Assembly: GCF_002303885.1 (NCBI RefSeq)
Contig: NZ_MRCM01000021.1
Span: 1 to 64,000, forward strand
DNA length: 64,000 nt
Source: Flavobacterium sp. ACN2
GTDB taxonomy: Bacteria > Bacteroidota > Bacteroidia > Flavobacteriales > Flavobacteriaceae
Direction: 5' to 3'
The notes beneath the pieces are model-generated. The model was not told the DNA's origin. It searched no databases and worked only from the letters and a program-made list of their open reading frames with translations. Below are positions 35,500 through 53,747 of the stretch, piece after piece (the first letter of the stretch is position 1; each line of letters starts with the position of its first letter). The position numbers were made by a program, and so were the translations under genes.

Positions 35500-36789
35500 C
35501 TAAAGTCTGTTGTCTGCCAAAGATCCTAAAACTCCTTTTACATCATAAATTAAACTTTTTTCTTTTTGCAAACTTGAAAAATCTATTTGAAGAAACTCTG
35601 AATGAGCTACTCCTAATACTAATGCATCAAATTCTTTTTCAGGCAGAGAGTTAATAGTCTCCAGCTTATATTCTTTATTAACTTCGTCATTATTAGCTAA
35701 AGGATCAAAAATAGTAACCACTATTCCGTAATCTTTTAATGCTTTTATAACATCGACAATTTTTGTATTTCTAACGTCTGGGCAATTTTCTTTGAAAGTA
35801 ATACCAAGCATTAACAGCTCAGCTCCATTAACCGAAATACCTTTTTTTATCATTAACTTCACTATTTGTGAAGCCACATATTCGCCCATGCTATCGTTCA
35901 AGCGTCTTCCTGCCAAAATTATTTCTGGGTGATAACCAAACTCCTGTGCTCTTTGTGCTAAGTAGTAAGGATCTACACCAATACAATGTCCGCCGACAAG
36001 TCCTGGTTTAAATGGCAAAAAATTCCATTTTGTAGATGCCGCTTCTAATACTTCTTGAGTATCGATATTCATTAAGTTGAATATCTTAGCTAATTCGTTA
36101 ACAAAAGCAATGTTAATGTCTCGCTGAGAGTTCTCAATAACTTTAGCTGCTTCCGCTACTTTTATTGTTGGAGCTAAATGGGTTCCAGCAGTAATTACAG
36201 ACTTATATAAAGCGTCAACTTTTAAACCTATTTCTGGTGTTGAGCCTGATGTTACTTTTAAAATTTTTTCAACTGTATGTTCCTTGTCTCCAGGATTAAT
36301 TCTTTCTGGAGAATATCCTGCAAAAAAATCTTCATTAAACTTTAAACCAGACACCTGTTCTAAAACTGGCACACATTGTTCTTCTGTTACTCCTGGATAG
36401 ACAGTTGATTCGTAAATAACTATATCTCCTTTTTTTAAAACTTTACCAACTGTTTCGCTCGACTTATAAAGAGGAGTTAAATCTGGTCTATTGTTTTTGT
36501 CTACTGGTGTAGGAACTGTTACTATATAATAATTACATTCAGCAATATCCGCTATAGAGGTAGTACAATATAGTCCTTCTTTTTCATCGGTTTTATTTAT
36601 TAAAACGCTTTGTAAAACATCATCCTCTACTTCTAATGTTGTATCTGTTCCTGATTTCAGAGAACTAACCCTCGATTCATTTATATCAAAACCAATTACA
36701 GAATATTTTGTTGCAAACAATCGAGCCAGTGGCAAACCGACATAGCCCAAACCAATAACTGCAATTTTAATATTTTTTTCTAGCTCCAT
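35500..36789 (-). CDS. UDP-N-acetylhexosamine 6-dehydrogenase (WbpO/TviB-like)
   Basis: A 429-residue UDP-sugar dehydrogenase that oxidises C6 of a UDP-HexNAc to the uronic acid with two NAD. It has KIAVIGLGYVGLPLARLF, YYIVTVPTPVD, VYPGVTEEQCVP and the catalytic cysteine in GLVGGHCIGVDPYYL. The sequence is of the WbpO/TviB type, and the WbpP/TviC-like epimerase of this window would supply UDP-GalNAc, giving UDP-GalNAcA. It is the first gene of the long operon and is preceded by a promoter and a structured leader. Confidence 0.94.
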   Translation of the reverse strand: MELEKNIKIAVIGLGYVGLPLARLFATKYSVIGFDINESRVSSLKSGTDTTLEVEDDVLQSVLINKTDEKEGLYCTTSIADIAECNYYIVTVPTPVDKNNRPDLTPLYKSSETVGKVLKKGDIVIYESTVYPGVTEEQCVPVLEQVSGLKFNEDFFAGYSPERINPGDKEHTVEKILKVTSGSTPEIGLKVDALYKSVITAGTHLAPTIKVAEAAKVIENSQRDINIAFVNELAKIFNLMNIDTQEVLEAASTKWNFLPFKPGLVGGHCIGVDPYYLAQRAQEFGYHPEIILAGRRLNDSMGEYVASQIVKLMIKKGISVNGAELLMLGITFKENCPDVRNTKIVDVIKALKDYGIVVTIFDPLANNDEVNKEYKLETINSLPEKEFDALVLGVAHSEFLQIDFSSLQKEKSLIYDVKGVLGSLADNRL

Positions 36790-36801: not shown

Positions 36802-36866
36802 TTTAGGCTTTTAAAAATTCACGGCTTCGCCGTTCCAAGTCACAATATCTGACTCAGATGCCTAAA
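36802..36866 (-). ncRNA. Candidate three-way-junction leader RNA of the polysaccharide operon
   Basis: On the minus strand a 7-bp closing helix (TTTAGGC at 36866-36860 with GCCTAAA at 36808-36802) encloses two hairpins. The first is ATCTG-AGT-CAGAT (36859-36847), the second ACGGC-GAA-GCCGT (36831-36819 region). The structure fills most of the leader between the predicted transcription start (about 36876) and the ATG at 36789. It has no U-run, so it is not a terminator. It may be the recognition element for the UpxY antiterminator encoded just upstream, or a protein- or ligand-binding leader. Confidence 0.5.
36847..36859. promoter_or_regulatory. 13-bp perfect palindrome (possible operator or RNA hairpin)
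   Basis: ATCTGA-C-TCAGAT is a perfect inverted repeat with a one-base centre, 23-35 bases downstream of the predicted -7 box of the operon promoter. It can act as a dimeric DNA-binding site or as a hairpin with a 3-nt loop in the leader RNA. The sequence alone cannot decide between these. Confidence 0.35.
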
Positions 36867-36881
36867 TTAATCATTTTCGCG

Positions 36882-36912
36882 CAAATATAGTATAATAACT
36901 CTAGTTAATCAA
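36882..36912 (-). promoter_or_regulatory. Flavobacterium-type promoter of the 36-kb polysaccharide operon
   Basis: Minus strand: TTG (36912-36910), a spacer of 20 bases, and TATATTTG (36889-36882), an exact match to the Bacteroidota vegetative consensus TTG/TAnnTTTG. Transcription should start near 36876, giving a leader of about 87 nt. A small hairpin (TACGG/CCGTA, 36913-36926) lies immediately upstream of the -33 element. Confidence 0.6.
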
Positions 36913-37002
36913 TACGGTTTCCCGTAATACTCAAAAACAAATTGTTAATAAAAAAACGCTTACCCACAATGTGTTATTAATCAGGCTGTAAATAATTACT
37001 TT

Positions 37003-37050
37003 ATAAAAAAAACAGAAGAAAAAAATCTAAAAAAAGACTTCTCTTCTGTT
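37003..37050 (-). terminator. Intrinsic terminator between upxY and the polysaccharide operon
   Basis: The minus strand has AACAGAAGA (37050-37042) pairing with TCTTCTGTT (37019-37011), a T-rich loop of 22 bases, then a run of T (37012-37005). It begins 22 bases after the upxY stop and ends about 90 bases before the operon promoter. It is placed exactly where the antiterminator just encoded could act on readthrough. Confidence 0.65.
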
Positions 37051-53680: not shown

Positions 53681-53747
53681 TTAAAAAAAATTTAAGGTAG
53701 AAATTATGAATTCAGGTCTAATCCTTCGATAATCTATGTTCTACCTT
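53681..53747 (-). promoter_or_regulatory. Stem-loop leader with T-run before rpsD
   Basis: AAGGTAGAA (53747-53739) pairs with TTCTACCTT (53702-53694), extended inside by ATTAT/ATAAT, and the stem is followed by a run of eight T just before the rpsD ATG. The form resembles an attenuator or S4-binding leader within the operon. Confidence 0.45.

Follow-up and report, generated by a model that had tools for sequence, protein, structure and literature searches.

An Upstream RNA Hairpin and a GCGNAGC Motif Form a Likely ops-Like Loading Site for UpxY in a Flavobacterium Polysaccharide Operon Leader

The window analyzed here (the whole stretch of 64,000 nucleotides from Flavobacterium sp. ACN2, contig NZ_MRCM01000021.1) carries on its minus strand a upxY gene that adjoins a polysaccharide operon, as judged from the ORF list, Pfam and NCBIfam, and the leader described in this work lies between the two (Table 1). 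The UpxY protein scores 137.5 bits with NF033644 (NCBIfam cut-off 100) and matches the Pfam NusG domain PF02357 at 8e-21; among named upxY genes the closest comes from Flavobacterium tyrosinilyticum (95% identity), and the genome itself contains a single upxY match at E <= 1e-25 and a single strong copy of the leader element. The TTG and TATATTTG ahead of the leader form a likely promoter of the Bacteroidota type, and the first ATG (36789) follows about 87 nt past the likely start, in agreement with the original prediction. The inverted repeat at the -33 TTG is a possible activator site; a second exact copy lies at C22:40523 of the genome, about 60 nt 5' of an ORF for a large secreted-looking protein, and with two mismatches there are 9 genome matches versus 7 for a reversed control. 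The sole Rfam match in the window is an S4-Flavobacteria ribosomal protein leader at 53702-53734 on the minus strand (47.2 bits).

Table 1. Features of the upxY-operon interval, in window coordinates.
Feature	Position	Strand	Basis
upxY: UpxY family transcription antiterminator, NusG paralogue, 154 aa	37073..37537	-	NCBIfam and Pfam
Likely intrinsic terminator 3' of upxY: AACAGAAGA..TCTTCTGTT and T run	37005..37048	-	Sequence read by eye; absent from terminator scan list
Inverted repeat TACGGGAAACCGTATT, overlapping the -33 TTG	36911..36926	-	Conserved in most near relatives
Likely Bacteroidota-type promoter: TTG 36912-36910, TATATTTG 36889-36882; putative start near 36876	36882..36912	-	Sequence and conservation
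P1 5' arm TTTAGGC, closing helix	36860..36866	-	Near relatives only
P2 5' arm TCTGAGTCA	36850..36858	-	Fold and covariation
P2 3' arm TGACTTGGA	36834..36842	-	Fold and covariation
ops-like motif GGCGAAGCCGTG	36820..36831	-	Core and pause-base enrichment near upxY
Mini-hairpin GGC-GAA-GCC	36831-36823	-	Inside ops-like motif
Putative pause T36821, next base G36820		-	Inside ops-like motif
P1 3' arm GCCTAAA, closing helix	36802..36808	-	Near relatives only
Nucleotide-sugar dehydrogenase, operon gene 1	35500..36789	-	TviB best NCBIfam match, just under cut-off; TIGR03026 over cut-off
Presumed target operon: run of 35 ORFs of at least 80 aa	953..36789	-	ORF count; Pfam on first four genes

The original prediction drew this leader as a three-way junction, with a closing helix TTTAGGC/GCCTAAA (36866-36860 and 36808-36802) around two hairpins, ATCTG-AGT-CAGAT (36859-36847) and ACGGC-GAA-GCCGT (36833-36821), and the letters of all three helices are indeed present. 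The 111-nt leader folds better than its shuffled versions (z = -2.89; 2/200 shuffles as good), as do the 65 nt that had been singled out (z = -3.99; 0/200). The ATCTG/CAGAT hairpin is not the conserved pairing, however: in the predicted fold it is displaced by a 9-bp helix, P2, which taken alone reaches -8.9 kcal/mol versus -1.8 for the hairpin. The two are mutually exclusive and conservation is found for P2 only, while ACGGC-GAA-GCCGT and the closing stem are retained in the predicted fold alongside it. Among the 25 leaders compared, the ten nearest, that of the window among them, are able to form the closing helix, some with T-A in place of C-G and others with interruptions. In the 15 more distant leaders the P1 arms pair with each other no better than swapped arms do (permutation p = 0.13); over all 25 they beat swapped arms (0/5000 permutations), a figure inflated by relatedness. 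RNAalifold on the 25 leaders returned P2 and the GGC/GCC mini-stem and left out the closing helix. The three-helix drawing was rejected as the functional core because its closing helix is local to the nearest relatives and because P2, rather than ATCTG/CAGAT, is conserved.

When 199 genomes of the genus were searched at the DNA level, 34 gave a match at E <= 0.001, the own genome among them; the motif is missing from two matches that were fetched (L030 and L031). In the alignment of 25 leaders, P2 and GGCGNAGCCGTG are retained while the remainder drifts, and GGCGNAGCCGTG, with its core GCGNAGC, stands at near-fixed spacing from P2 in the relatives. A model of the 47-nt core (R1) matched 78/249 genomes of the genus and 10/299 genomes of the family sample at E <= 0.01, tallies that include the own genome and a few false matches. 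Five R1 matches were excluded from the alignments and readings while still standing in these raw tallies: two within rpoC (L103, L106), two with TGCGRAGC only and in another context (L089, L096), and one with a false pairing (L070). From the weak R1 matches a general form can be read, namely a hairpin with its 3' side close to TGKGACT, five to six bases, and then GGCGNAGCC.

The original prediction proposed a covariance search of such leaders. P2 covaries among the relatives; the closing helix is local to the nearest leaders. Across 74 matches (71 distinct), in an alignment that was fitted to the P2 structure and is biased towards it, 85.5% of P2 cells are paired versus 72.1 +/- 1.0 after shuffling, double changes occupy 63 cells versus 20.1 +/- 3.4 (slid controls are far lower), and further pair types number 26 versus 17.4 +/- 1.6, none of which was reached in 500 shuffles. 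Double changes touch 8/9 P2 pairs versus 5.9 +/- 1.0, a level reached in 29/500 shuffles. The MAFFT alignment of the 25 leaders points in the same direction, more weakly (6 double-change cells versus 2.0; 2/500 shuffles).

The core itself is strict. Among 159 distinct elements, 155 bear it, with A (138), G (10) or T (7) as the loop base, TGKGA-to-core spacing is 7 or 8 in 144 of the 151 elements that have TGKGA, and the outer pair of the mini-hairpin is gc in 114, gt in 16, at in 9, ac in 4, tg in 4, tt in 3, cg in 2, ta in 2 and cc in 1, tallies to be read with the models used in mind since these favor such sequences. The outer pair co-varies, being gc, gt, at, tg, cg or ta in 147/155 elements. 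The flanking bases were examined in a set defined by core and place alone, comparing cores near upxY with cores elsewhere in the same loci, many of them from related species: T-1 is present in 58/60 versus 38/104, G+1 in 46/60 versus 15/104, G-2 in 45/60 versus 34/104, and G-11 in 41/60 versus 44/104. All four consensus-pause flanks (G-11, G-10, T-1 and G+1) are present in the window, where the 12-mer GGCGAAGCCGTG occurs once, both strands counted. As DNA, d(GCGNAGC) is an unusually stable mini-hairpin, and a 3-bp GNA-loop hairpin is predicted in the 12-mer as DNA; the folding energy is -3.0 kcal/mol as RNA and -1.7 as DNA, so the folding program does not favor DNA.

The element is closely tied to upxY. 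Of 40 fetched loci, 28 have a UpxY gene on the same strand, 21-438 nt upstream of the element, and in two others (L097, L101) upxY is more than 2 kb upstream, again on the same strand. In six loci (L079, L084, L087, L091, L102, L109) the genes downstream are of polysaccharide type, and upxY was not found within 6 kb; the remaining loci are two false matches in rpoC and two doubtful ones. One downstream gene each in L079, L084, L087, L091, L097 and L101 carries a nucleotidyl-/cytidylyltransferase, epimerase or export domain according to Pfam (in L091 the gene checked is not gene 1).

A model-free view comes from 80 loci of named genomes that were selected on their UpxY only (the best 80 of 579), many of which are from the same or near species or from genomes or species that supplied the model. 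On the upxY strand, GCGNAGC, a pattern derived from the first leaders, lies within 750 nt downstream of the gene in 58 of these best 80 loci, versus 1 on the other strand, and its 60 occurrences there compare with 2.6 expected from resampled sequence. In the larger flanks the counts are 28 (+) and 12 (-) upstream and 30 (+) and 25 (-) further downstream. The second model, R2, matches 66/80 of the same loci at E <= 1 and 56 at E <= 0.01, where the 66 stand for one match per locus picked by hand (set aside: L123 1151, L132 2431, L151 7894, L154 8355, L159 229), and all 71 R2 matches are on the upxY strand. In 14 of these best 80 loci no R2 match was found even at E <= 1.

Co-occurrence in the family sample tells the same way. 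With cut-offs of E <= 0.01 for the element and E <= 1e-25 for upxY, 29 of 298 genomes have both, 4 the element only, 29 upxY only and 236 neither (p = 5e-20); some of the genomes counted had supplied training elements for R1 and R2, and after removal of the training genomes the figures are 22, 3, 29 and 236 (p = 4e-16). The element was not found at E <= 0.01 in 29/58 upxY genomes of this sample. At E <= 0.05 there are 15 element-only genomes, probably mostly by chance. Every one of the 25 family-sample elements within 350 nt of an upxY shares its strand, and 6 of them are upstream of upxY, which would make upxY the first gene behind the element. A weak match in G488 (E = 0.013) lies 648 nt from upxY on the opposite strand. 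Either divergent elements or another recognition mode would explain the upxY loci and genomes without a match.

Several genomes carry more than one element (L084 and L085 in G111, L086 and L087 in G149, and G273 and G500); some of these elements are far from upxY, and some precede GDP-fucose-type or other genes. G273 and G500 have three elements each, none of them near the single detected upxY, a placement that suggests UpxY may act in trans; the multi-element genomes are candidates for such action.

The element is not confined to the genus, and similar ones occur elsewhere in the phylum. In the phylum sample R2 matches 92/296 genomes at E <= 0.05, where about 15 would be expected by chance, the E-values being rough. 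Outside the family, among genomes that took no part in model training, 25 contain an element at E <= 0.001, and 24 of these encode a UpxY-like paralogue (E <= 1e-18) versus 141/266 overall (p = 2e-6), five of the 25 coming from one family (f17) in which most sampled members have such a paralogue. In 117 of these 141 upxY genomes the element was not found at E <= 0.001. Of 46 loci from the family and phylum searches (L193-L214, L245-L268), all 44 that were read out have GCGNAGC within the match; the other two, L201 and L206, are close to contig ends. A UpxY-like ORF lies within about 3 kb in 17/22 family loci and 9/24 phylum loci, and since the model favors the core, this neighborhood is better evidence than the core count.

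Fifteen Bacteroidales-type loci were gathered by UpxY similarity only, likewise outside model training: seven named Bacteroides, Phocaeicola or Parabacteroides records and eight fecal contigs labeled as phage. GCGNAGC lies at most 160 nt 5' of the conserved UpxY start in 10 of the 15, versus none on the other strand, although near-copies (L300, L308 and L318; L319 and L321) mean that 10/15 overstates the independent cases; about 0.3 of 16 loci would be expected by chance. The core is present in 6/7 named records and 4/8 fecal contigs labeled Bacteriophage sp. A Spirosoma locus outside the 15 (L299) has GCGCAGC in wecB, readable on both strands, and with it the counts become 11/16 (+) and 1/16 (-). 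A separate hairpin is predicted just 5' of the core in 7 of the 10 loci, while a different fold is predicted for the near-copies L300, L308 and L318. Most of the Bacteroidales-type loci do not keep T-1 and G+1, and the upxY start as annotated in L300, L303 and L304 includes the core. The fecal records labeled Bacteriophage sp. (L307, L308, L318-L323) contain UpxY genes and may be Bacteroidales capsule DNA, which they resemble. Scanning viral contigs for the pattern yielded two stretches, one of which (L297, 22.7 bits with R2) reads as an open frame; the other (L298) scored 14.5 bits.

A close analogy is RfaH and its ops (JUMPstart) element. PMC5995543 describes ops of E. coli as a consensus pause, with the pausing TG at positions 11-12, where a small hairpin that RfaH recognizes folds in the non-template strand; recruitment proceeds through both the pause and the DNA hairpin. 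The window shares with that system, as described there, a NusG paralogue, a long polysaccharide operon and a short element in the leader that ends in TG, matches the consensus pause and can form a small non-template hairpin, GGCGAAGCCGTG lying in the same frame. The letters, however, are different: GGCGAAGCCGTG and GGCGGTAGCGTG (ops) share 8/12 positions, and G5, T6, A7 and G8 of ops all differ, among which G5 and T6 are contacted by RfaH (PMC5995543). In the window the loop of the GCGNAGC core is of the GNA type, unlike that of ops, and an RNA hairpin lies upstream at near-fixed distance; its protein scores 80.8 against the RfaH cut-off of 144.5, but clears that of UpxY.

For the capsule operons of Bacteroides, UpxY leaders are the subject of Chatzidaki-Livanis 2009/2010, and UpxY counters termination in the leader (PMC7819879). 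The window resembles these in the protein family, in having a leader site and, through the 10/15 Bacteroidales-type loci, in the GCGNAGC at the upxY 5' end. Unlike them, the site is downstream of upxY in the window and in most related loci fetched, sits in the window behind a likely terminator with its own promoter, and keeps the TG pause bases that the Bacteroidales-type loci mostly lack. A search for UpxZ was blank in the own genome and in control genomes alike. In work published in 2024, Bacteroides UpxY reportedly recognizes the paused polymerase by way of the non-template DNA that is exposed and the duplex DNA upstream, with RNA hairpins helping, and the predicted anatomy of the window site fits this picture closely. 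LoaP binds an RNA hairpin of the UNCG type, at which no pause is discernible (PMC12691694). The LoaP/dfn hairpin of Bacillus velezensis is likewise a leader hairpin paired with a NusG paralogue, yet the window protein scores 47.6 bits against the LoaP cut-off of 125 and the P2 loop is not UNCG.

A short hairpin and a conserved core beside an antiterminator gene in many Bacteroidota most likely mark the place where UpxY boards RNA polymerase, and we consider it likely that this leader is an ops-like loading site, with a mini-hairpin at a pause that is prepared by an RNA hairpin. The central guess of the original prediction, that the leader is the recognition element of the adjacent UpxY, is well supported by linkage, strand, co-occurrence and covariation, all of them read from sequence. 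RNA polymerase leaving the promoter would transcribe P2, and P2 would be newly emerged as the polymerase reaches GGCGAAGCCGTG, the match to the consensus pause; the base of P2 is 13 nt from the RNA 3' end at T36821, so that it should have just emerged at the putative pause. In the paused bubble the non-template strand would expose GCGAAGC, which could fold into the GNA-loop mini-hairpin, and UpxY from the adjacent gene would read this exposed DNA and perhaps also the RNA hairpin. UpxY would then replace NusG on the polymerase and travel along with it, allowing the 36-kb operon to be transcribed without premature termination. We infer the pausing, DNA readout, UpxY binding and antitermination, and the step of which we are least sure is what UpxY reads, be it DNA, RNA or both.

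This step is where the main competitor differs. In a LoaP-like version, which strikes us as possible if rather unlikely, UpxY would bind nascent P2, or P2 with the small RNA hairpin, and pausing would be minor. The covariation of P2 as a base-paired structure speaks for it, as do the largely conserved TGKGACT on the P2 3' side and the requirement of LoaP antitermination for an RNA hairpin (PMC12691694), but the P2 stem varies in sequence, the most conserved letters are GCGNAGC and the consensus-pause bases, and T-1 and G+1 would be unneeded for RNA-only recognition. The strict GCGNAGC together with its consensus-pause flanks points to an ops-like site, working through non-template DNA and pausing, no less than to a LoaP-type site of RNA-protein contact.

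The other readings are far less probable. That P3 (ACGGC-GAA-GCCGT) and five following U residues form a weak terminator, overcome by UpxY or another factor, seems improbable to us; the original prediction had stated that no U-run follows, which is inexact, as GAATTTTTAA comes after the last hairpin and the scan calls the site terminator-like, and an attenuator would agree with the action of Bacteroides UpxY against termination in leaders (PMC7819879). A five-T run is present in only 4/25 aligned leaders, though, and the second pair of P3 is unformed in 11/23 distinct rows, and the terminator reading was rejected on these two grounds. The original prediction also offered a sensing RNA, and a riboswitch-like three-way junction responding to a nucleotide sugar or another signal would suit the compact fold (z = -3.99) and the polysaccharide genes downstream; nothing further was found in its favor, and we regard it as very improbable. 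The junction is limited to near relatives, the conserved core is one hairpin and a 12-mer, the linkage is with upxY and not with one enzyme, and Rfam gave no match at gathering threshold over the leader (chance-level matches at E <= 10); the riboswitch was rejected on the missing Rfam match over the leader and the local closing helix. We give just as little weight to a 5' mRNA stabilizer or translation-control hairpin tied to UpxY by neighborhood alone, which would fit a position near the 5' end of a long mRNA, but not elements at varied distances and on either side of upxY, nor those that precede distant polysaccharide loci in upxY-bearing genomes, nor a GCGNAGC core across the phylum sample.

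No Rfam family fits: the leader and five related loci give nothing near a gathering score, and searches of openly licensed papers turned up neither a Flavobacterium element nor an ops-like UpxY motif. The best reading is that the preferred ops-like site is a new form of the UpxY paused-polymerase recognition described above. To our knowledge, how a specialized NusG paralogue locates its operons has been worked out in detail in few cases, above all RfaH and LoaP. A short, searchable signature tied to UpxY would allow UpxY regulons to be read from Bacteroidota genomes, covering capsule and exopolysaccharide clusters in both environmental and gut species, and would make the question of DNA versus RNA hairpin directly testable. 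The GNA mini-hairpin further suggests that readout of a folded non-template strand may not be peculiar to RfaH.

Two minor observations concern the loci themselves. A small ORF with a start like MLDSLITSKTRIRLLVKFF stands beside upxY or the element in L092, L107, L108, L200, L204, L250, L257, L259, L266 and L267; for the L267 copy, neither Pfam (at 1e-8) nor NCBIfam (at 1e-5) gave a match, and the ORF may be a regulator of upxY/element loci. Further, a Flavobacterium-type upxY locus with the element occurs in a MAG titled Klebsiella pneumoniae (L167), a title that is probably mislabeled.
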